Assembly (NCBI GenBank): GCA_013215865.1
Contig: JABSQL010000026.1
Span: 1-10,110 of the forward strand
Origin: Candidatus Margulisiibacteriota bacterium
GTDB taxonomy: Bacteria; Margulisbacteria; Marinamargulisbacteria; DT-59
Reading direction: 5' to 3'
DNA: 10,110 nucleotides
The notes under the pieces are model-generated. The model was not told the DNA's origin. It saw only the letters and a list, made by a program, of their open reading frames with translations, and searched no databases. Within the stretch, counting starts at the first letter, position 1; every line of letters begins with the position of its first letter. Below are positions 1 to 10,110 of the stretch, piece by piece. Made by a program: the position numbers and the translations under genes.

Positions 1-441
1 GATATTGAAGATTTTGCAAATAATACGGATAGGAAAGTAGCAGAATCTGGATTTGACATACATTCAGATGATTCTTTATCTCCGTTTTTTTCCTTTGTGA
101 ATGGTCCAGTTGAAATGACAGCTACCAATTTTCAGTATACCTTAACAAATCATGAAGGACTCCGTCAAAAAGGATCATTTTCTATCCCTCCTGTTGGCAA
201 ATATCAAACTGTTTTTTTACATTTCAATGAACATATTGATGGTCTAGCTTCTTTTCTTGATGAGGATGGGGACAAAAAGGCAACGATTAATGGCAGAAAA
301 CTGGACCTGACTTCTCTTGGTTCAACAACTGCGTTTGCCGCTGAAGTTCAGTTTCTTCAGACCCAATCTTCCTTTGCCTCAGATTTATTTAATTTTTCAA
401 AGAGTCTGGAGCAAAAATTATTTAGTAACTTAGGATCGTAA
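1..441 (+). CDS. C-terminal part of an unrecognised protein (5' end outside window)
   Basis: The frame is open from base 1 to the TAA at 439-441, giving 146 visible C-terminal residues. A GTG at 97 is in frame but has no ribosome-binding site and sits in continuous coding sequence, so it is not a credible start. The visible part has a beta-like stretch (ATNFQYTLTN, then GSFSIPPVGKYQTVFLHF), an acidic turn (DEDGDKKATINGRKLDL) and a final amphipathic helix from about AFAAEVQFLQ to the end. A mixed beta region ending in a C-terminal helix also occurs in flagellar axial proteins, and a hook-family gene lies downstream. However, the helix lacks the usual SNVD and QRxY signatures, so I do not assign it to that family. 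It ends 49 bp before the next gene on the same strand, with no clear terminator hairpin between them. Function unknown. Confidence 0.75.
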   Translation, partial: DIEDFANNTDRKVAESGFDIHSDDSLSPFFSFVNGPVEMTATNFQYTLTNHEGLRQKGSFSIPPVGKYQTVFLHFNEHIDGLASFLDEDGDKKATINGRKLDLTSLGSTTAFAAEVQFLQTQSSFASDLFNFSKSLEQKLFSNLGS

Positions 442-490: not shown

Positions 491-2260
491 ATGATAAAAC
501 CAAGTTATCCCATACTCGTGCCTCTTATGATTCCACTAACAAGGAACTATAAGGAAAGCTCTGATGAAACAGCGCAACGGGCGAATACAATGACCACAGG
601 CTTTGCAATGCAGGTGTTCAAATTCATAGAGCAACAAGCGCCATTCACAGATGGAGATGTTGTACCGAAAAATATGACACGGGACAGCATTTGGAACCCT
701 TTTGTAAAAAGCGATGAACGTGAGAATTGGGATTATGCGTCATCTTCGCAATACCAAACGGCCTTTGCAATGACCGAAACGGATTGGAATCGTACACAAA
801 CCATTCTTGAAAATCATAATATATATAACTATCGATATATGGTGCAATCTGGATTGTGGCAAGGAATGGATACAGAGTCCCTATACTACGCTAACAAGGC
901 AGCCACAGAAAGTAAGCGTCGGGGACTAGAATCTCTTCGATATATGTATGGATCATCTGTTCAGAATCTGCCAACACCCACACATGGTTTATATAATATG
1001 CATCGCGAATTTTCATCGCCAGATCCTGAAACGGATGGTATGTCACAGGAAGCGCTAAAAACCATGATGCAGTCTCAAGTGGATGGAGCCTTGGAATGGT
1101 ATACCCAAGTTCAATCCCAAGTACCACCCGAAAATTCCTGGATATATAGACAAATATTTGAAAATGACCACGATATTATGAAGGGCCTAGATGCCTTTGG
1201 AAATGACCCTGTATTTGATCTGTATCGAGACCATAGTGTTAAAACATTGTTCAATTGGATACAATCTCAAAACAAATTATCTTCACATTTGAGGGCCCTG
1301 CCTTCTTCAGAGAATGCATCTCCGTTTATAAATGGACTTATTGAGACATATCAATCCTATTATCAACAGATCCAAAATGCCGATGTTCAAAGAATGTCGA
1401 CCCAGGAGGTCATCAACCTGCTTGGGAATTTCTATAAATTATCTGCGGGTTACCTTGAGGGTCTTCTTAAAGGCCGCTTACAGGGCCTGGAAGCGTATCT
1501 TCCTGAAAAGACGTTAATAAGCGTCGTAAATGAGCTGGCGCCTATTGTGGAGCTTTTCTGGCCAATTGAGAACGATTTAGTGGGTGCGAGGCGTATTTCT
1601 GACCCATATTCAAGTGGTGAAGAAACATTGGAGGACACAGCGCGTATTGTCCAGAATATATTAACCAATAAACTGCGGGTCCCCACAACAGACAGCGCCC
1701 ATTTTAATAACCCAGAGGGTGTGATTTCGTTAGAGCGACTGTCTTTTGATTATTTACCCCATTCCATTGATACTCTGGTCGAAGAAACCATTCATACACA
1801 GTACACACTCCAAGGATACGATGGATTTGTTCAAATGAGCGAAGAAAATGATGATATGACATTTTCTAGAAGGGGATTCTTAGATACATCACAGTCCGTA
1901 TTTGGAAAGCCAGCAAACGAGATTTCTTTAAATGATATTGAGGATGATATGGAAGTGATTCAACATCCATTTGACCCATTTGTGACCCTTTTATCAAATG
2001 TAGCAACGTATGAGCAGGCGTTTGCCCGAAACCAGATTCTCCAACTGACAGTAGGAATGATGTTTGATGATCTACAAAAAGGGGAAAGACAGAAGTATAG
2101 AAGAAACAAAGAAGAATATGATGAGTATATGTTAAATGAGGCCAGGGAAAGGGCCAGAAGCGCTCAAAGAGGCAGGCAAGAAAGAAAAAGGGCTGAGAAT
2201 GCAAGCCAAAATTCTGCAAAAATGGCCACTAAGAAATCGAGGTCGAAGAAAAATAAATAA
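491..2260 (+). CDS. Unknown-family 589-aa protein with basic C-terminal tail (short paralogue)
   Basis: I do not recognise this family. The start at 491 is supported by AAAGG eight bases upstream and by alignment of its first residues (MIKPSYPILVPLM) with the downstream paralogue (MTTKPFRPLPLM). No signal peptide or transmembrane segment is evident; the protein is hydrophilic and rich in aromatic residues, Asn and Gln. Blocks shared in order with the gene at 7473 are: WDY...QY..AF (80-92), ESKRRGLESL (140-149), ENS....IFENDH..M (214-230), GNFYKLSAG (312-320), LAPIVELFW (349-357), NKLRVPTT (393-400), FDYLPHS (419-425) and GRQERKRAEN (561-570). From about 530 the chain is a charged helix ending in a Lys/Arg/Ser tail (KKSRSKKNK). 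The tail could act as a secretion signal, bind an acidic partner, or bind nucleic acid. A strong SD for the next gene follows the stop after two bases, suggesting cotranscription. Confidence 0.9.
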   Translation: MIKPSYPILVPLMIPLTRNYKESSDETAQRANTMTTGFAMQVFKFIEQQAPFTDGDVVPKNMTRDSIWNPFVKSDERENWDYASSSQYQTAFAMTETDWNRTQTILENHNIYNYRYMVQSGLWQGMDTESLYYANKAATESKRRGLESLRYMYGSSVQNLPTPTHGLYNMHREFSSPDPETDGMSQEALKTMMQSQVDGALEWYTQVQSQVPPENSWIYRQIFENDHDIMKGLDAFGNDPVFDLYRDHSVKTLFNWIQSQNKLSSHLRALPSSENASPFINGLIETYQSYYQQIQNADVQRMSTQEVINLLGNFYKLSAGYLEGLLKGRLQGLEAYLPEKTLISVVNELAPIVELFWPIENDLVGARRISDPYSSGEETLEDTARIVQNILTNKLRVPTTDSAHFNNPEGVISLERLSFDYLPHSIDTLVEETIHTQYTLQGYDGFVQMSEENDDMTFSRRGFLDTSQSVFGKPANEISLNDIEDDMEVIQHPFDPFVTLLSNVATYEQAFARNQILQLTVGMMFDDLQKGERQKYRRNKEEYDEYMLNEARERARSAQRGRQERKRAENASQNSAKMATKKSRSKKNK

Positions 2261-2275
2261 GTAAGGAGGGGAACC

Positions 2276-3034
2276 ATGGCACATGAAGATAGAATAATTG
2301 ATATGGTGGGTGCCGGTGGTGCAGACCAAATTGAAGAGAATCCTTATCATAAAAAGATAAAGAAAGAAATTTCTCAAAAACATCAACAAAAAGAACAGAA
2401 AAAAAACAGTGTGAAAATGGACCTCAAAGACAAAGTTCAGCTGTCACAACCTTTCAAGTGGCGAGAATCCAAAAAGGGGTCATTTGAACTCGAAGAAACC
2501 CCTCAGGAAAAAGAATATACCCGGTTGAAACACAGTGGTACCAAGGTATTGCAGATATTGGGACTAAAAATCGATTTGGCGGAACGAAAAGATGTATTAA
2601 TGGAATCTTACAAAAAAGTATTTATCGAAACCAAATCACATAATTGGCTGTTTGCGAAACTATATCAGTTGAAAGCAGGGGTGATGCAATTTTTATTATC
2701 ACGGTTGGGGCTAACACCAAAAGAGCTGGATACCCTTCGAAAAGAAGCAACAGAGGGGGCGTTTGAGGACAATAAAAAAAAGTTTGCACAAAATGAATAT
2801 AATAGTGAATTATTTGGTATTTTTAGTGCTGGACGGGAAAAGAAAAAATTGAAAGCGTTCAATGAAGTGCGGGGCCAATTGATGAAACAAATGATTAACC
2901 TTGGAAAAAAAAGTGTTTACACAAAAACAAGCGTATTATCCATACAATTGGATCAAGTCACTAAGATTTATGACGATTTGAGGGAAGAAAAGAAAAATTT
3001 AATTTTCAAGAGGGATTATTATGCACATGGATAA
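2276..3034 (+). CDS. Charged helical protein of unknown function, 252 aa
   Basis: An excellent SD (AAGGAGGGG, 2263-2271) precedes ATG 2276, only 15 bp after the upstream stop. The N-terminal 60 residues are very hydrophilic and Lys/Gln-rich (for example HKKIKKEISQKHQQKEQKK) and are probably disordered or coiled coil. Residues about 80-250 are predicted largely helical by eye, and the C-terminal helix (about 215-246) looks amphipathic. Around 139-163 is the motif FLLSRLGLTPKEL followed by F163. Its pattern, L-x-x-x-x-G-x-T-x-x-x-L then F 12 residues on, resembles two segments of the protein encoded at 4635-6044. No catalytic motif, signal peptide or membrane span is visible. Its 3' end overlaps the next start by 14 nt, implying coupled translation. 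A scaffold or chaperone role is possible but not shown by the sequence. Confidence 0.85.
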   Translation: MAHEDRIIDMVGAGGADQIEENPYHKKIKKEISQKHQQKEQKKNSVKMDLKDKVQLSQPFKWRESKKGSFELEETPQEKEYTRLKHSGTKVLQILGLKIDLAERKDVLMESYKKVFIETKSHNWLFAKLYQLKAGVMQFLLSRLGLTPKELDTLRKEATEGAFEDNKKKFAQNEYNSELFGIFSAGREKKKLKAFNEVRGQLMKQMINLGKKSVYTKTSVLSIQLDQVTKIYDDLREEKKNLIFKRDYYAHG

Positions 3035-3263
3035 AAAGAATTCTAGGATCATGTATAGAGAGCCAGACCCTAAACGTGAAACCATAGAAGACGTTCAAAA
3101 AAAGATAAATCGGGTGGACATGTATTTGGAGCGGGCCAATTCCCGAAAAATGAAATTAGAACGCCAACTCAAAAATGCCCAAAATATCGAAAAAGAAGTG
3201 GATTTGGTCAATCAAGGTAAAAAACTGTACGACTTGGAATCTGATATGTCCATGGAGGTGTAA
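3021..3263 (+). CDS. Small coiled-coil protein, 80 aa
   Basis: The start overlaps the last 14 nt of the preceding gene and has its own SD (AAGAGGG, 3008-3014) six bases upstream. From about residue 20 to 75 the chain is one long charged helix with heptad-like hydrophobic spacing (IEDVQKKINRVDMYLERA, then MKLERQLKNAQNIEKEVDLV), so a coiled coil is likely. In size and character it resembles small helical adaptors or chaperones of secretion systems such as FliJ-like proteins, but no sequence signature supports naming it so. It lies between a larger helical protein and the glycosyltransferase, whose SD (GGAGGTG) is embedded in its final codons. Confidence 0.8.
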   Translation: MHMDKKNSRIMYREPDPKRETIEDVQKKINRVDMYLERANSRKMKLERQLKNAQNIEKEVDLVNQGKKLYDLESDMSMEV

Positions 3264-3264
3264 G

Positions 3265-4395
3265 ATGAAGTTATCGTTACTGCTGATGGTGAAAAATGAA
3301 TCAGAGATGCTCAAGAAAACGTTGCCGAACTTTATTAAGGCAAAAATTCCTGTCTATGTGTTAGATACGGGTTCTACAGATGATACCATTGACTACTTAC
3401 ACTCGCAGGGAGCAACGGTTTTTCAATATGATGACTGGGACATGAATTTTGCCAAAGCCCGTAATGCACTTTTGGATAAAGTAGAGTCTGACTGGGTCTT
3501 ATTCTTAGATGCAGACGAATATATGGAGTTAGAAGCAATTATTGCATTACATAATTTGGTTCAAGAAACGAACTGTAAAGCGTTTGCACTGGCTATTCAT
3601 CAAAATAGACCAGGAGAATTAAACGTGTCAGACTTACAAAATAGACGAATAAAGCTATTTTGCTTAGACGCGGGATTTCGGTATCAACGGCCTGTGAATG
3701 AGACACTCCAGGACAAAGAGGGTGTTAATGTATTGGCTCAATCTACTTTCGTGAAAGATGTTTGTATATATCATTGGGGAAATTATTATCCTGAAGATAA
3801 GAAATTTATAAACAAAAAAGAATTTTATCTGAAAGTATTTCAAAATGCGCTTAAAGATAAGGCATATGCCAAAGACTATAATCTTTGGTATCAACTGGGC
3901 ACCCATTATAGAGGTCTAAAAAAATACCCAGAAACAATATCCTGTTATTTGAAATCGATTCGATATTGTAAGAATGATCAGATAAAACACTTTTTATACC
4001 ATGATTTATTAAATATGCTTTTATTTCTCAAAAGAACGCGCCGTATTGAGTCCTACTGTGATGCCTTGGAAAAGCGATATGCTACCCTCAATAAAGAATT
4101 GTATTGTATCAGGGGGCGTGTGTATCAGCTTCAAAATAAGATTAAGGAGGCCAAAAAATACTATCTCAAAAGCGTGGCCTATCATAATCCCAAAGACCCT
4201 TTTCTTTTTACTCTCAATTACAAATACAGGGGTTTTTTTCAGTACGTGGCATTGGGATACATAGAAGAAAAACAGGGCCAATTTGAACAGGCCAAAGAAT
4301 ATTATCTTAAAGCCTCTGAATTAGGAAGTGCAGATGTTCTGACAAAATCTCTGAAAAGAATATCATCTGCCTTGGAAAAAGGAAGTGATACCTAA
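3265..4395 (+). CDS. Family 2 glycosyltransferase with C-terminal TPR-like repeats
   Basis: Predicted to transfer a sugar from a nucleotide-sugar donor in the cytoplasm. Start 3265 is chosen because GGAGGTG (3254-3260) precedes it and the GT2 fold begins at once; an in-frame ATG at 3175 lies inside the previous gene. The 376-aa chain shows the GT-A N-terminus MKLSLLLMVKNE (1-12), LDTGSTDDT (33-41), W.MNFAKARN (58-67, typical of the SunS-like and TPR-linked GT2 branch), and LDADE (81-85), the DXD-type metal and nucleotide-sugar site. RRIKLF (127-132) and IYHWGNY (168-174) follow. Three TPR-like helical pairs follow at about 204-237, 278-308 and 324-354 (for example GQFEQAKEYYLKASELG). Donor and acceptor are unknown. 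In this context the acceptor could be one of the locus proteins, as in flagellar or S-linked protein glycosylation, but that is inference. The stop overlaps the next ATG (TAATG). Confidence 0.92.
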   Translation: MKLSLLLMVKNESEMLKKTLPNFIKAKIPVYVLDTGSTDDTIDYLHSQGATVFQYDDWDMNFAKARNALLDKVESDWVLFLDADEYMELEAIIALHNLVQETNCKAFALAIHQNRPGELNVSDLQNRRIKLFCLDAGFRYQRPVNETLQDKEGVNVLAQSTFVKDVCIYHWGNYYPEDKKFINKKEFYLKVFQNALKDKAYAKDYNLWYQLGTHYRGLKKYPETISCYLKSIRYCKNDQIKHFLYHDLLNMLLFLKRTRRIESYCDALEKRYATLNKELYCIRGRVYQLQNKIKEAKKYYLKSVAYHNPKDPFLFTLNYKYRGFFQYVALGYIEEKQGQFEQAKEYYLKASELGSADVLTKSLKRISSALEKGSDT

Positions 4396-4550
4396 TGTCT
4401 ATTTCGAATTTTAAACCAGGTTCAGATTCTCTGAATATCAACGCCCAAATGAAAGCCCTTGAGGTGGAGAAAACCGATGGTGCAGACAAAGATCGGAGTG
4501 ATGAACTACGGAAAGGAGACACCCAGCTATCCCAACTGTTACAAGGATAA
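4395..4550 (+). CDS. 51-aa N-terminal segment, separated by in-frame TAA from the downstream frame
   Basis: ATG 4395 overlaps the glycosyltransferase stop (TAATG) and has an SD, AAGGAAG at 4379-4385, with a nine-base spacer, so initiation here is credible. The frame ends at TAA 4548-4550. The next codons continue in the same frame without another stop to 6044. The 28 codons between the TAA and ATG 4635 read as ordinary protein (KSAKQNLLQASAALAS, then an Ala/Glu-rich helix). The visible head is hydrophilic (MSISNFKPGSDSLNINAQ) and looks like the N-terminus of a longer helical protein. The simplest reading is one gene of about 549 codons interrupted by a single nonsense change, or a base-call error at 4548. 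A real short protein followed by re-initiation is the alternative. Confidence 0.55.
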   Translation: MSISNFKPGSDSLNINAQMKALEVEKTDGADKDRSDELRKGDTQLSQLLQG

Positions 4551-4634
4551 AAGTCTGCCAAACAAAACCTTCTTCAGGCTTCAGCAGCGCTGGCATCTTC
4601 AGCGGCGTCAGAAGCTCAAGAAGATACAGAGTTA

Positions 4635-6044
4635 ATGAAGGGCCTGAAAAAGGAAGTAACGAATTTTATGGGGAAGGTAGAAGGTGAAGACTCAGCACGT
4701 TTGTCCAACACAGCAACCCAGCATCTTACGGAGCAAAAACAACTCAAGAAAAAAACCAAACCGTATCAATTTTTTTCAGGGGGTCGGAAAGCTGCAGAAA
4801 AGGAGCTTTTTTCATATTCCAATTCTTTGGCGGCTTATGTGTTATCCAAGTCCCCAAAAGAAAAACAGGAATTGGAAAAATCTAAAAAAAGATTGTTACA
4901 AGGGGGTATTACCACCCGGCAACTCGGGGAAATGGAAGGAAAAATGTCAAAAGTGGTATTTCAACAAGCGTATTCTCACCTCAGGAAACAGTTGGTAAAA
5001 CAGGGATTATCTGGAACGGGGTCAATGGTTGAACAGTATCTTTCGGGAATGGGTTCAAAACACCTTCTCACTCAGTTCTTGTATGACTCATCTTTATTGG
5101 GCGTAACTAAGGGCAAATCTCTTAGGGCAGATTTGGAAGGAGAGGATTATAAACATTCTAGGTTCAAATTGCGCTCTGAAGTAGGAAGAGAGCTCAGAAT
5201 GTTTCTATTTGATGAAGCCTCTGCTCAGTTATCCAAGGCTTTATTGGGAAATAAGCAAGGCGCGGAACAACTGGATCAACTGGTCCGAGCCATTAAAAAA
5301 TCTAAGACCCCATATAATGCCACCGATTTAAAAAATTCCATGCATAACATGATTGTTCATATGGGGCTGGAACATTTTGTTCCGCCAGAATCAGGCGGCT
5401 CTGTCGATTACTCGGATGATAGAGGCGATGAAAGAGGCCGAGAACAAAAAGAACCCGTGTATCTCAGTCCCCAGGATCAGCTGGAAGATGAAATTAGAAT
5501 CCTTTTCATGAAGCAGGCCCTTCAGCCGGGTTTCCGGTCGACCATTTCAACCTATCTCCAGACCCGCCATTACGCGAAACAACTCAAAAATTTGGGGTAT
5601 CAAGACGAAAATGTGTTGAAACAGATGAAAAAGGAAGGCGAGTTATTGGCACGATCAGAACTACTGGAAGAATTAAATGCCTCTTTTATTGAAGAGGCAA
5701 CGCTTGCGGAATTAAAGGGCCCAACCTATAAGCTCATTGTGAAAAATCGAAGGTATATACTCAAACGCCTTATTAAACTGGGTGGAAAGCCTTCCAAGAC
5801 TTTGTATCATAAAATAAGGGATGATGCCCATCTGAAAGTCTTTGATGTGGTTAAAGAGCAGCTGCATCTTTTGGAAATGGAGCAGTCTCAATTACCCATT
5901 CAGAAGCTTCGCCTTAAAAGACGGGAATTGTCGCGAATTATAGAGAGAATTCAAAAAGTAACCCCATTGCCAGACAACTTAGTTATCCCGGGTCTGGCCA
6001 TGGAGGGGTATCTGTCGGACAGCAGTATTACAGAAGCAGTGTAG
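4635..6044 (+). CDS. Large helical protein of unknown function, body of the split frame
   Basis: As an independent gene this would be 469 aa from ATG 4635, but no convincing SD precedes that ATG and the same frame is open back to the TAA at 4548. The natural start is therefore probably 4395. The protein is almost wholly helical and highly charged, with no signal peptide or membrane span. There are two helical halves: about 50-250 and 280-445. They are joined by an acidic, Gly-rich linker (about 252-275, SGGSVDYSDDRGDERGRE). Segments RLLQGGITTRQL (86-97) and RLIKLGGKPSKTL (378-390) resemble each other and FLLSRLGLTPKEL in the protein at 2276-3034, suggesting a weak repeated helical module. It terminates with tandem TAG codons (6042-6047), unlike the TAA used by the other complete genes. 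Function unknown; a structural or scaffold role is only a guess. Confidence 0.75.
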   Translation: MKGLKKEVTNFMGKVEGEDSARLSNTATQHLTEQKQLKKKTKPYQFFSGGRKAAEKELFSYSNSLAAYVLSKSPKEKQELEKSKKRLLQGGITTRQLGEMEGKMSKVVFQQAYSHLRKQLVKQGLSGTGSMVEQYLSGMGSKHLLTQFLYDSSLLGVTKGKSLRADLEGEDYKHSRFKLRSEVGRELRMFLFDEASAQLSKALLGNKQGAEQLDQLVRAIKKSKTPYNATDLKNSMHNMIVHMGLEHFVPPESGGSVDYSDDRGDERGREQKEPVYLSPQDQLEDEIRILFMKQALQPGFRSTISTYLQTRHYAKQLKNLGYQDENVLKQMKKEGELLARSELLEELNASFIEEATLAELKGPTYKLIVKNRRYILKRLIKLGGKPSKTLYHKIRDDAHLKVFDVVKEQLHLLEMEQSQLPIQKLRLKRRELSRIIERIQKVTPLPDNLVIPGLAMEGYLSDSSITEAV

Positions 6045-6097
6045 TAGGGAAGTTGGACCGATGTTTGTGCATGCGGTAGAATGAAAGCGAGGTATAT

Positions 6098-6985
6098 ATG
6101 TTAGATATTATCTATTCTTTATCCAATTCTATTACAGGGTACACAGAGGCTATTCGTACCTTGACACTGGATGTTCAAAATTTTCAGACAGCTGGATATA
6201 AAAAAACAGATGCTGATTTTAGTTCGTTGTTTACGAGAGCGGTGGGCATCCCTGGAGGCTCCTCATATGGCGGATTTGGTTGGAGTAATTCAGTGACCCT
6301 TAACCAGGGGTCAGCCTACGTTGTGAGAGGGCATAATTTTACCCAAGGAGGGCTTGTCGAACAACCCGGTTTATCTGCAGCCATATTGGGTGTTGCCAGT
6401 TTGTTCGTAGTCACACACCCAAACTCTAGAAAGAAGCAATTTACAAGATCCAGTAATTGGCTATTTGACAGTAACGGAAGTCTGCGAGACACCCAGGGTC
6501 GGCAGGTGATGGGGTATCATATGGTGAACGGGGTGGCAGATAAAAGTGCGTTGGTTCCCATTTCAATTGACCCAGAAAATATTGATTTAACCGATTTGGG
6601 ATTTGAAAGCGGGGGGATACTTCGCACCAATTATCAAGCAAGAAAGGCGGCTCTTGATTCGGGTGAGAGTGAATTGCCACCAACCGAAGATTTATTCCAG
6701 CTGGGTTTGGCACGTTTCGCAAACCCAAATGGATTAAGGTCAGCCTCTGGAGATTCATATGTGGAATCTCCTATATCTGGACCGGTCTCAGGTTTTGGTG
6801 TGAGTGGTGAAGCCAAGTTTGGAGAGGTATTTGGCGGGTTTGTAGAGGCATCAAATGTAGACCCAGCAGAAGTGTCTATTGAGGGCACTCAGCTCCAAAG
6901 AGGGTATAATGCGGTGCAGGGTATGTTGACCATGGTCAATCGAATACTTCAGAGCTTTATACAAAGTGTATCCCAATTTAATTAA
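6098..6985 (+). CDS. Flagellar hook/rod-family axial protein (FlgE/FlgF/FlgG-like)
   Basis: Family signatures appear in the expected order. An N-terminal rod-type helix ends in the degenerate motif LDVQNFQTAGYKKTDADF (24-41), in place of the usual ANNxANxxTxGYK. The conserved core includes FVV (103-105), FTRSSNWLFDSNGSL (115-129) and QGRQVMGY (133-140). Next come LARFANPNGL (204-213), SGDSYVES (217-224), and the C-terminal SNVDPAE (252-258) with QRGYNAVQ (267-274). In known flagella these proteins are exported without a Sec signal by the flagellar type III apparatus and polymerise into rod or hook through paired terminal helices. At 295 aa it is slightly longer than a typical FlgG and shorter than a typical FlgE, so I do not assign a symbol. 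An SD (GCGAGG, 6087-6092) precedes the start. No other standard flagellar gene is recognisable nearby, so it may be a specialised paralogue. Confidence 0.88.
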   Translation: MLDIIYSLSNSITGYTEAIRTLTLDVQNFQTAGYKKTDADFSSLFTRAVGIPGGSSYGGFGWSNSVTLNQGSAYVVRGHNFTQGGLVEQPGLSAAILGVASLFVVTHPNSRKKQFTRSSNWLFDSNGSLRDTQGRQVMGYHMVNGVADKSALVPISIDPENIDLTDLGFESGGILRTNYQARKAALDSGESELPPTEDLFQLGLARFANPNGLRSASGDSYVESPISGPVSGFGVSGEAKFGEVFGGFVEASNVDPAEVSIEGTQLQRGYNAVQGMLTMVNRILQSFIQSVSQFN

Positions 6986-7320
6986 TGGACTCAAAGCTTC
7001 TTGAAGATAAGAAAGAGTTGTGTCAGCAGCTACAAGACCTTACTCAGAAATATCTTGCAGATTTAGATCCCGTCGGAAATAGTTTAGATAGAATCAAGGC
7101 CGCGCCTTCATTAACCAATATCCAGAAAGAATTAGTGGAAACCGTCCTTTTAGAGTACCAAGACCATATGCATAATTTAAAGCAACTGTCTGAAGAGCTT
7201 GCGAATATAAATGCTCTGAAAAATATGGAGGTGAATTTGTTGCTCGAAATTGGATATACGGTATTGTCACAAGCAACGTCATTTTCAAAAGAAGTCCCCC
7301 AACGTTTGAAAGATATCTAA
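6985..7320 (+). CDS. Small all-helical protein, possible export chaperone, 111 aa
   Basis: The start is fused to the stop of the hook-family gene (TAATG at 6983-6987) with no clear SD of its own, so translation should be coupled to it. The chain looks fully helical with amphipathic repeats (ELCQQLQDLTQKYLADL, then HNLKQLSEELANINALKNM) and no cysteines, signal peptide or membrane span. Size, acidic-amphipathic character and coupling to an axial protein fit a FlgN/FliT-type flagellar export chaperone. I see no diagnostic motif, so this is positional inference. A small structural partner of the hook-like protein is the alternative. Confidence 0.78.
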   Translation: MDSKLLEDKKELCQQLQDLTQKYLADLDPVGNSLDRIKAAPSLTNIQKELVETVLLEYQDHMHNLKQLSEELANINALKNMEVNLLLEIGYTVLSQATSFSKEVPQRLKDI

Positions 7321-7321
7321 C

Positions 7322-7377
7322 TTGTTCAGATAGTGAACATATTATATTAAGAAATATCATTACAAGATTATGCATAA
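7322..7377 (+). promoter_or_regulatory. Candidate promoter/operator region upstream of long paralogue
   Basis: The 152-bp gap 7321-7472 is the only long intergenic stretch in the window. It begins with a perfect inverted repeat TGTTCA-GATAG-TGAACA (7323-7339) directly after the stop codon. A weak sigma70-like pair overlaps it: TTGTTC (7322-7327), 17 bp spacer, TATTAA (7345-7350). The 10-bp palindrome TTATGCATAA at 7368-7377 repeats the element found just upstream of the 589-aa paralogue. The dyad lacks GC-rich arms and a T-run, so an operator fits better than a terminator. I see no clear sigma28 or sigma54 consensus. The rest of the gap is AT-rich without further structure, ending in AGGGGG (7458-7463) nine bases before ATG 7473. 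Confidence 0.3.
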
Positions 7378-7472
7378 AAAGACCGTTATTAGGGTATATA
7401 TAGGTATGGAGAGAAACTTTATAACCTATTAACAATAAATATACGTAAATTTGTATAAGGGGGCAATTATAC

Positions 7473-10110
7473 ATGACTACAAAGCCATTTCGGCCACTTC
7501 CATTGATGCCGTTTGTGAAGCCAGATATTGAATTTAGACAGTCACGAAATGATGATCCAAATTCTGTGAAGGCGCAAGCACGGGCCATGAATTTTGGCCT
7601 TGAACTACTCAAATTCTTATCTCCCGAGCGTGTCGCTTGGCTAGCGAGTGATTCCACTAAATTTGATAAAAATGAAGGATATCAAGGGATTAAGGCGAAT
7701 AACCGTGCTTGGTGGGCGCCGATGGAGTATTATGCAGAAAAAACAGGTTATACGGGAAACGTCATAAAGGAGAGTATGCATGATAGAATGGACCCGCATA
7801 GATCTGATGCTTTTGACGATAAAGAGCGTCGCTATAGCTCTACCCATAGATCTTCTTCCGGTTCATTTGCAGGTGGTTGGGTGGGTGGTGACTTTCATGG
7901 CTCTCTAAAGAATGTGAATATGTTTGGGGGCTTATCGGGGGGGTTTAGTGGATCCGAAGGAAGGTTGAATTTTCAAAATACCTGGAACCATTTTGCGACC
8001 CATGAGAAACGCCGGTCTCAATGGGACTACGGTGTTTCAGACCAATATATGTCCGCATTTCAGGTAACAGATGGTAATGACTGGAGAACCATGCAAAGTC
8101 AACTGGGTCATATCAGCAGGCAAGTCATTGCCATGAAAGATGCCAGAATTGGATACGAAACAGACCTATTTCATGCAGATTCACATAAAGAAGACTATAA
8201 ACAGCTTGGAGATCAATTACAAACGGGATGGCGTAAAGTACAAGGCGAATCAATTTCAGGCAAGGTTAGAGGTGGGGGACAGAATACAGTTCATCAAAAC
8301 ACATCCATCAAATCTTGGGGCCTTACCCCTGATGGGAAGCATAAACAATCCCAAGCCCCCAACTATTTCGAGATCATTAATTCAGGTGCCTGGGCAAAAT
8401 GGGCCCTTGAGGTAAGACCTGGGAAAAAAGGTTATGCCTATAATAAACTTGATATTAATAATCCAAACCATTTAAATGCGACCAACACCGTTATTCCTGA
8501 TGCTGTAGCTGAAAGCCCCTATTGGCATAGACTGATGGGTGACAGGTTCTACTATTTTGCCAAATCAATGGTAGAGAGTAAGCGGCGTGGTTTAGAGGCT
8601 CTCAAGCATTTCCACGGATCAAAAGTAGAAGATCTTGCCGCACCTTTGAATGATAAGTCAACAGGAAAATTATATGAAGAATATTCCCGAGAAGAAAGAG
8701 CAAGGCTTCGGATAAAAATGATGGCCCAGGCTGCAGGTGCTAAAGATTGGTATTGGAATGTACTAAGGAAACAATCCTATGAAAATTCATATTTTAATAG
8801 TCTGATTTTTAAGATGGATCATGAAATGATGAATATTTTGGATGGTATGGGTGAATATGGGGCAACGACAACAAGTAAAAGAATGACAACAGAAGCCAAT
8901 GAAAATGCCATGTTCCAAAAAGCCACAGTAACGGCCATTGACCACTATTTGAAGAATGACAATAATGGCCTAAAGTCTATATGGCCTAGAGATGGAAAAC
9001 CTGTCATGCCGGAGGGGGTAGATTCAGACAGTAAAGAAGGGAAATTATTTTCTAAATTCAAAGACTACTATAACGCTTACTTTACACGAACGGACACCAA
9101 AACGTCAGATATTGTACGCAAAAAAATGGGAAACCTCTATAAGGTGGCTGCAGCATTGGTAGAAGGAAAGTTTTTTGAAGATAACGATACAAATATGAAA
9201 CTTCTCAAAGTGGTTAATATGTTGGCACCCACCGTTGAATTATTCTGGAATCGACATTGGGATAACAAATGGAATCGAGACCTCTTTACAGCAAATTATG
9301 ATGCAAATGACTTTATCAGTAAAGTGATTGAAAATAAACTCAGAGTACCGATTACAAAAGCATCTCATTATAACCATGTTAACCAATCGATCACCCTTGA
9401 TATGATCGAGTTTGACTTTCTTCCCCATTCCAGTTGGAATGCTGGTTATGCTGAAATTGGCAGAGAAAATTCAATGGGATATGACCAATATATTCTTGCA
9501 AATGGGTATACAGAGGCCGGGTGGATTAAGAATTTAGGTGTCTCAGGTCTTCATATTTATCCAGGGTTTGATGGTGAAATGAATTCTCTTAGAGATGGGG
9601 GTAAGAGATCTGTATCTTGGGTTAATGCACTTAGGAGGGATCGTAATCAGTTTATGTATTTTCATGAGAAAAATATATATGATTCAAATGGCAACTACAA
9701 TTCTCCAGGTGGGGCTTATTGGGCGTCAGGTAAAAACAGTTATACTAGATTCAAAGAACATATTGATGTCAAGCGCTACAGACACAGTGACCCCAATAAT
9801 AGAGGCTACTATCGAGAAATAGATTTTAATCCAGCCTATGCGGTGGCTGCCTATACCACTAGACCCCACATTGATAACGCATATGATGCACTAAACTATT
9901 TGGTGATGGGACTGGGTACATTGCAGATGAATCGTGTCAATTTGAAGAGATACAAGGCAAGGCAAGAAGCGTATGAAGATGAAGAACGAGAAGAACTAAG
10001 AAATGAAGCTCGGGGAGAGGCAGCCGGGCGTTCTGAACGAAAACGGGCAGAGAATGCGGCAAAAAGATCGGCCCAAAAAGCCAGAAAAGCAAGTAAGAAA
10101 AATAAGAAAA
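7473..10110 (+). CDS. Unknown-family large protein, long paralogue of the 491-2260 product (3' end outside window)
   Basis: The frame is open from ATG 7473, with AGGGGG at 7458-7463, to the end of the window: 879 codons without a stop. It is paralogous to the 589-aa protein. Shared blocks are: WDYGVSDQYMSAF (184-196), ESKRRGLEAL (368-377), ENS....IFKMDHEMM (437-452), GNLYKVAAALVEG (553-565), LAPTVELFW (584-592), NKLRVPIT (621-628), FDFLPHS (647-653) and GRSERKRAEN (852-861). The short protein has 19 residues after its GRQERKRAEN block. Here 18 are visible (ending KASKKNKK), so the stop should lie within a few codons. The extra length is in three places: a Gly/Ser/aromatic-rich stretch at about 130-170, an insert at about 215-345, and a longer, Tyr/Asn-rich segment at about 655-800. 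No signal peptide or membrane span is seen. Function unknown; it looks like a large structural or exported protein. Confidence 0.88.
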   Translation, partial: MTTKPFRPLPLMPFVKPDIEFRQSRNDDPNSVKAQARAMNFGLELLKFLSPERVAWLASDSTKFDKNEGYQGIKANNRAWWAPMEYYAEKTGYTGNVIKESMHDRMDPHRSDAFDDKERRYSSTHRSSSGSFAGGWVGGDFHGSLKNVNMFGGLSGGFSGSEGRLNFQNTWNHFATHEKRRSQWDYGVSDQYMSAFQVTDGNDWRTMQSQLGHISRQVIAMKDARIGYETDLFHADSHKEDYKQLGDQLQTGWRKVQGESISGKVRGGGQNTVHQNTSIKSWGLTPDGKHKQSQAPNYFEIINSGAWAKWALEVRPGKKGYAYNKLDINNPNHLNATNTVIPDAVAESPYWHRLMGDRFYYFAKSMVESKRRGLEALKHFHGSKVEDLAAPLNDKSTGKLYEEYSREERARLRIKMMAQAAGAKDWYWNVLRKQSYENSYFNSLIFKMDHEMMNILDGMGEYGATTTSKRMTTEANENAMFQKATVTAIDHYLKNDNNGLKSIWPRDGKPVMPEGVDSDSKEGKLFSKFKDYYNAYFTRTDTKTSDIVRKKMGNLYKVAAALVEGKFFEDNDTNMKLLKVVNMLAPTVELFWNRHWDNKWNRDLFTANYDANDFISKVIENKLRVPITKASHYNHVNQSITLDMIEFDFLPHSSWNAGYAEIGRENSMGYDQYILANGYTEAGWIKNLGVSGLHIYPGFDGEMNSLRDGGKRSVSWVNALRRDRNQFMYFHEKNIYDSNGNYNSPGGAYWASGKNSYTRFKEHIDVKRYRHSDPNNRGYYREIDFNPAYAVAAYTTRPHIDNAYDALNYLVMGLGTLQMNRVNLKRYKARQEAYEDEEREELRNEARGEAAGRSERKRAENAAKRSAQKARKASKKNKK

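Follow-up and report, generated by a model that had tools for sequence, protein, structure and literature searches.

A family of divergent proteins from a conserved operon of Margulisbacteria, probably parts or cargo of a flagellum-like export machine

To our knowledge, known flagellum-type export systems are either swimming flagella or injectisomes. The hallmark of injectisomes is the absence of hook, rod and P ring, with a short SctJ in place of FliF, and we know of none with rod- or hook-like proteins, FlgI, FlgH or a long FliF. The margulisbacterial genome studied here resembles a flagellum-bearing one in that it encodes homologues of FlhA, FlhB, FliP, FliQ, FliR, FliO, FliN, FliF, FlgI and FlgC, with a hook-like protein in the locus described below and both FlgH and an FlgE/F/G-type protein confirmed in one relative of its class. 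Unlike a flagellum, this machine comes without a flagellin match in any of the 27 genomes of the class, with a FliG in its fliF operon that lacks the FliG_C domain, with an FlhA from a separate deep clade, and with an extra operon of undescribed families. With injectisomes it has the export gate families and the lack of flagellin in common; it differs from them in having FlgI and a FliF of 553 aa (own genome), FlgH (class relative) and proteins of the rod and hook type. Because the flagellin test failed and the machine retains parts that, as far as we know, injectisomes lack, we count it as a new form of flagellum-type apparatus. The proteins that concern us, A and B, may share with flagellins and hook-associated proteins a role as the outer part of a tube, but neither they nor their family match those proteins.

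The window, that is, the whole stretch of DNA analyzed, spans contig C179 in full (10110 bases); the genome it comes from has 2.2 Mb in 495 contigs and is 78.5% complete (Table 1). A BLASTP comparison of A with B gave three significant, colinear pieces: A 68-106 with B 171-211 (E 2e-5), A 117-447 with B 345-674 (E 5e-32, 119 bits) and, at the C-terminus, A 552-589 with B 843-878 (E 1e-6). When B was shuffled 500 times, 324 of the shuffles yielded any hit at all and the top score was 28.1 bits. A three-way alignment with a third protein, P0001, contains more than eight common blocks, including ESKRRGLE, WY..V, AP..E, NK...P and FD..PHS. Judged by these alignments, A and B are true paralogues. 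Neither matched Pfam at E up to 1, nor PHROGs or NCBIfam at E up to 0.1. A 19-row profile of the family, searched in place of A or B singly, retrieved nothing from the PDB sequences up to E 1, and no Pfam family was hit by more than one of the 19 members (best E 0.004). No third copy was found in the 78.5% complete genome. An earlier note on this DNA had proposed two large paralogues of unequal length, sharing at least eight ordered motif blocks and belonging to no recognized family; the alignment scores and blocks bear out the first two points, the named motifs included, and the match to a characterized family that would speak against the third was absent from Pfam, PHROGs and NCBIfam for A and B, and from PDB for the family profile.

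Table 1. Genes of the window, in order along the contig.
Feature	Position	Strand	Description
c1	1..441	+	Small protein truncated by the contig start, with its C-terminal 146 codons present; BLASTP L072_03 1.1e-6, L074_07 1.6e-6
A	491-2260	+	Family member of 589 aa in the standard operon slot, shorter than B
C2	2276..3034	+	Conserved operon protein, no family assigned
c7	3021..3263	+	80 aa, charged; labelled from its position and by eye, with relatives at the corresponding place
Glycosyltransferase family 2 with C-terminal TPR repeats	3265..4395	+	PF00535 3e-11; TPR families above cut-off
C3	4635..6044	+	469 aa here; the operon's most widely conserved protein without known family
Short hook-like protein, FlgE/F/G family	6098..6985	+	295 aa; TIGR03506, PF06429 and PDB matches
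c6	6985..7320	+	111 aa; BLASTP L072_09, L075_06, L074_01, E 6e-8 to 4e-6
B	7473-10110	+	Second family member, at least 879 aa; no stop codon, runs off the contig end

Direct searches revealed few relatives. Against 5.8 billion proteins, A found none, B found one of 957 aa, and a ten-row alignment found three. Across 95 genomes, its own included, A alone matched only its own; DNA-pattern scans of genome contigs with A and with a three-row alignment (A1) yielded no confirmed relative, A1 likewise yielded none among viral contigs, and outside its own genome the A1 profile gave tail matches only. The hook-like gene served as another entry point: among the loci around 17 of its matches, many class members repeat the gene order c1, a protein of 762-914 aa, C2, c7, C3 and hook-like protein, and the large protein in A's slot carries the A/B motif blocks in the same order, as judged by eye. 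A first hhalign comparison of A/B sets with these class proteins was only suggestive, with A, B and P0001 together reaching P 70% and E 4e-5 (other clusters 0.6% or less), B with P0001 reaching 29.5% (other clusters 1.2% or less), and A alone reaching P 1.1, below its 5.7 with the slot protein c12. Alignment of A, B and P0001-P0003 with 12 class proteins gave P 97.7 and E 2e-12, whereas 15 column-shuffled versions of the 12-row class alignment gave P 0.1 or less; with six proteins of other classes the same set reached P 99.3 and E 6e-21.

Individual profiles reach parts of this family. In hmmsearch, with E-values calculated for 5000 sequences, the profile of the other-classes proteins found P0003 (2e-21), P0001 (2e-9), B (1.5e-8) and P0002 (2e-5) and missed A (E 1), while the class profile reached neither A nor B (E about 10) and did find members in other classes (best 1e-10). 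A profile from seven class proteins (A3) found 14 strong class members, 7 of them its own rows, and missed both A and B. Since the class profile misses both window proteins and the other-classes profile misses A, family membership is, by these profile comparisons, a chain of matches into which A is tied through B. We recognized members by profile homology and by a position between c1 and C2; A shows both, its homology running via B, and B shows the homology and lies outside that slot. In G003, G012, G014 and G017, the four class genomes whose hook-like genes are closest, the slot holds a shorter protein of 182-331 aa with a basic tail. Two such proteins were considered as shortened members and not accepted: c12 (318-331 aa) reached at most 8.7% against the class proteins by hhalign, and with the 182-aa protein added the comparison gave 0.6-0.7% against the A/B/P0001 sets. 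Separately, a repeat-like stretch at about positions 410-500 of the A3 profile weakly matches very long ORFs, the longest of 7,430 aa, in many of the phylum's genomes, for example G011:C9, G004:C32 and G014:C61.

The family resides in a conserved operon. Among 42 family ORFs in the compared loci, both window copies included, C2 lies within the next two genes of 36 and C3 within seven genes of 36; the six without C3, B among them, all hit a contig end downstream. On the upstream side, c1 is found no more than two genes away in 32, and some of the other ten (L221, L223 and L224) have unlabelled genes in that place instead. A glycosyltransferase precedes C3 in 19 of the 42; in the window's class, its position between family member and C3 is confined to this window. 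The last 20 loci, for which we used C2 and C3 profiles built from earlier loci, contained a family ORF in 19, C2 in 16 and C3 in 15. Across the phylum the conserved order is thus a protein of about 100 aa, the family member, C2, c7, in some cases the glycosyltransferase, and C3. The short hook-like gene often joins this operon in the window's class, but in G002 (same class), G031 and G061 it adjoins genes read as fliM/N/O/P/Q/R. By gene order, what the family accompanies is the operon, not the hook-like gene as such; the constant linkage to that gene that the earlier note would have taken as support for a system held often within the class and failed in those three genomes. The note's reading of A and B as subunits of one machine agrees with the conserved operon; its idea that the two are functionally distinct received no such support: A occupies the standard slot, and B is an extra copy. 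Beside the operon in several class genomes we also observed a very large protein, c5 (L085:15547-19000 and relatives), with sizes of 704-2,482 aa, many members being cut by contig or stretch ends; one has a weak transglutaminase-like match below cut-off.

The neighbors of A and B are mostly without described families. C2 matches 11 ORFs of class loci (E 6e-18 to 2e-43) and no PDB sequence in a profile search; PDB profile searches of C3, C2 and c1 returned nothing convincing, nor did Pfam for C3, and c7 has only weak Pfam matches, all below cut-off. Relatives of c1 are about 100 aa long and usually lie just upstream of a family member. The hook-like protein is better defined, with 84.9 bits to TIGR03506 (subfamily; cut-off 70.25), 27.1 bits to PF06429 (cut-off 23) and a best match of 4.5e-10 among FlgG/FlgE sequences of the PDB. 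From its size and place, c6 may be chaperone-like. The first possible start of the glycosyltransferase in the ORF list is 3175 and the likely one that given in Table 1. The C3 profile match already starts 180 bases ahead of the ATG (window 4455-4635) and crosses one in-frame TAA. The notion that c1 and proteins of 83-90 aa are needle or rod subunits was an impression from their sequences, for which Pfam yielded nothing, and we set it aside. We also rejected contamination of the contig, because, within the set of compared loci, it is to class relatives that C2, C3 and the hook-like protein are most similar.

At E 0.01, the 19-row profile detected family members in 46 of the phylum's 74 genomes, several of which had supplied rows, and in 15 of the 27 genomes of the window's class. 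For f19 and f23, the flagellate families, the matches were weak and partial, and that in G028 found no confirmation in the stretch retrieved. FliF or FlhA is present in 27 of the 28 genomes without a family match, and thus the machine occurs without a recognizable family member. No genome besides the window's has two clear full-length copies; in G043 and G069 two contigs give matches, but these are weak or truncated. C3 is found in 63 of the 74 genomes, versus 1 of 212 genomes of other phyla, and this sole outside match (43 positions, E 2e-4) looks like chance. One C3-profile match, on contig C3 of G053 (G053:C3, about 206892-207998), falls inside an ORF reported as 24,416 aa. Hook-like proteins of the FlgE/F/G type match in 63 of the 74 genomes and 19 of the 27. 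In G018 (74% complete) and G020 (65% complete), operon genes are present and a FliF or FlhA match is absent.

Genes for a flagellum-type basal body and export gate occur in most genomes of the phylum, with FlhA in 66 and FliF in 68 of the 74 genomes (22 and 24 of the 27 in the class). The window's own genome holds all five gate components (FlhA, FlhB, FliP, FliQ and FliR): contig C246 encodes FliN, FliO, FliP, FliQ, FliR and FlhB together with an FlhA cut by the contig end. On contig C164, FlgI, FliF (553 aa) and the N and middle domains of FliG score above cut-off, FlgC just under it, and FlgB- and FliE-like proteins below it; a sigma factor is also encoded there. The flagellin family PF00669, which gave a signal in 4 of 14 controls, was absent from this 78.5% complete genome and from the 27 class genomes, and was found in 8 of the 74 genomes of the phylum. 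The FliG beside fliF on C164 (L173:4943-5458) has 171 aa and N and middle domains only, and another (L175:7463-8278) has 271 aa and the same two domains, the middle one below cut-off. FliG_C gave no match in the window's genome and occurs in 22 of the 27 class genomes in other proteins, in ORFs of 211-828 aa, making a split motor possible; the machine may be non-rotating. At the ends of export-gate operons in the class we noted, by reading only, a ParA/MinD-like gene (L089:5706-6446) and a sigma-factor-like gene (L101:6855-7460).

The rod proteins of the class have an unusual start. In the window's genome, the FlgB/FlgC-like proteins (L173:1945-2861) begin with a hydrophobic stretch that by eye resembles a Sec signal, and the FlgC match begins at residue 30. 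Seven FlgB/FlgC-like proteins from four class loci (L174-L177) have a similar start, with a best 15-residue hydropathy of 1.4-2.9, whereas four from two loci of other classes (L178-L179) do not (0.45 or less). This pattern suggests that rod proteins of the class are sent out via Sec, not through the type III gate.

What, then, do A and B do? Their sequences and surroundings suggest that they are probably parts or cargo of the flagellum-like export machine. Neither has a hydrophobic stretch in its first 60 residues, and a 19-residue stretch above the membrane threshold (1.6) occurs, anywhere in the sequence, in 1 of the 42 family ORFs. Cysteine makes up 0.14% of the family, versus 0.76% of 331 other ORFs and 0.02% of the hook-like family; C2 (0.35%) and C3 (0.14%) are also poor in it, so that a scarcity of cysteine does not by itself mark a protein as an exported part. 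The N-terminus is proline-rich, with K/R-P in the first 36 residues of 39 of the 40 family ORFs that have an N-terminus (two cut ORFs omitted), versus 55 of the 331 others. The C-terminus is basic, with a median net charge of +7 in the last 30 residues compared with +1 in the others; such an end would be unusual in a filament protein. Uncut members range from 500 to more than 900 aa. B is similar in length to P0001-P0003 and outscores A against them, A's shorter length lowering its score, and for these reasons B looks nearer to the ancestral form. The structure prediction and fold search proposed in the earlier note did not help: models were too poor (mean pLDDT 40 for B and 49 for A), and the best PDB match to A's model had E 0.52.

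The absence of an N-terminal hydrophobic stretch, the low cysteine content, the K/R-P motif, the basic end and the hook-like and glycosyltransferase neighbors would fit a product exported through the gate to the outside. We therefore propose, with confidence evenly balanced between right and wrong, that A and B are duplicate members of a family encoded in the accessory operon of a flagellum-type export machine without flagellin, and that they are exported to its outer end. The accessory operon would comprise c1, the family member, C2, c7, the glycosyltransferase, C3, the hook-like protein and c6. Family members would leave through the FlhA/FlhB/FliPQR gate and a rod/hook-like tube, perhaps glycosylated by the operon's glycosyltransferase, and would form or decorate the outer end, replacing flagellin. 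A would be the standard component and B a longer duplicate that supplies an alternative version of it. The firm part of this model, established by the sequence comparisons above, consists of the family, its operon and the presence in these genomes of genes for the basal body and export gate.

The same sequence features allow an internal assembly factor: a cytosolic sorting platform, ruler, gatekeeper or co-chaperone whose basic C-terminal helix would bind the gate or axial proteins. The conserved operon slot and the basic end suit such a factor, as does the length range from 500 to over 900 aa, which can occur in rulers and scaffolds; the very low cysteine content, common to the hook-like family, and a proline-rich N-terminus in place of a folded start speak against it, and we consider it unlikely, although it is the most serious competitor to a part at the outer end. 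Wide divergence in length and sequence, duplication in one lineage and an adjoining glycosyltransferase could alternatively point to secreted cargo, adhesins or effectors acting on neighboring cells, in which case the family would not be structural and B would represent an expansion of the cargo set. Yet keeping to one slot as a single copy is more usual for a part than for cargo, and none of the 19 members has a toxin or enzyme domain, leaving this explanation improbable.

The history of the machine bears on whether the operon still has a function. We built a tree of FlhA with 49 rows from 42 genomes and no named outside sequence, leaving out a fragmented second copy of G037 and an extra fragment on C53 of G061. 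It splits into two clades with support 100/100, separated by branches of 1.87 and 1.73 changes per column. One clade has 8 rows, which are exactly the flagellin-bearing genomes; the other has 41, comprising the 34 other sampled genomes and second copies from 7 of the 8 flagellin genomes. We infer that the 8-row clade represents the ordinary flagellum, because of the flagellin and because in G031 FliF, a full-length FliG and FlhA lie on one contig. Within the larger clade, the window's class contributes 16 rows, of which 15 form one group (100/99) and one, G002, stands outside at an unsettled fork; the pattern broadly fits vertical descent. By its FlhA, then, the machine looks like an old and separate lineage of the flagellum type, and not like a decayed form of the flagellum of those eight genomes. 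That the operon is what remains of a flagellum in decay, with A and B as accessory genes without current function, would agree with the absence of a flagellin match in 66 of the 74 genomes and the reduced FliG of the window's genome, but the second type of FlhA is kept across classes, and beside the flagellin-linked one in 7 genomes, and C3 persists in 63 of the 74; we regard decay as very improbable. An unrelated housekeeping role for A and B, with the hook-like neighbor there by chance, is scarcely credible given the synteny of 36 of the 42 family ORFs across the phylum.

By the database searches above, the A/B family is a new protein family. Taken with our preferred reading of A and B as exported parts, these comparisons raise the tentative and somewhat doubtful possibility that flagellum-related type III machines include a third kind, distinct from both the motile flagellum and the injectisome, in which an outer structure of the A/B family would replace flagellin. 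Such a machine would have been passed down from an early stage of the phylum, some members running it alongside a true flagellum; its innermost rod proteins would, within the window's class, have been rerouted to Sec. In the literature we searched, restricted to open-licence papers, we found no description of such a system. The operon supplies marker genes for the machine, namely c1, the A/B family, C2, c7 and C3, of which C3 is the best. More generally, a deep branch with a basal body, rings and a hook-like protein and without flagellin would reveal other uses of the machine, and bears on the origin of injectisomes.
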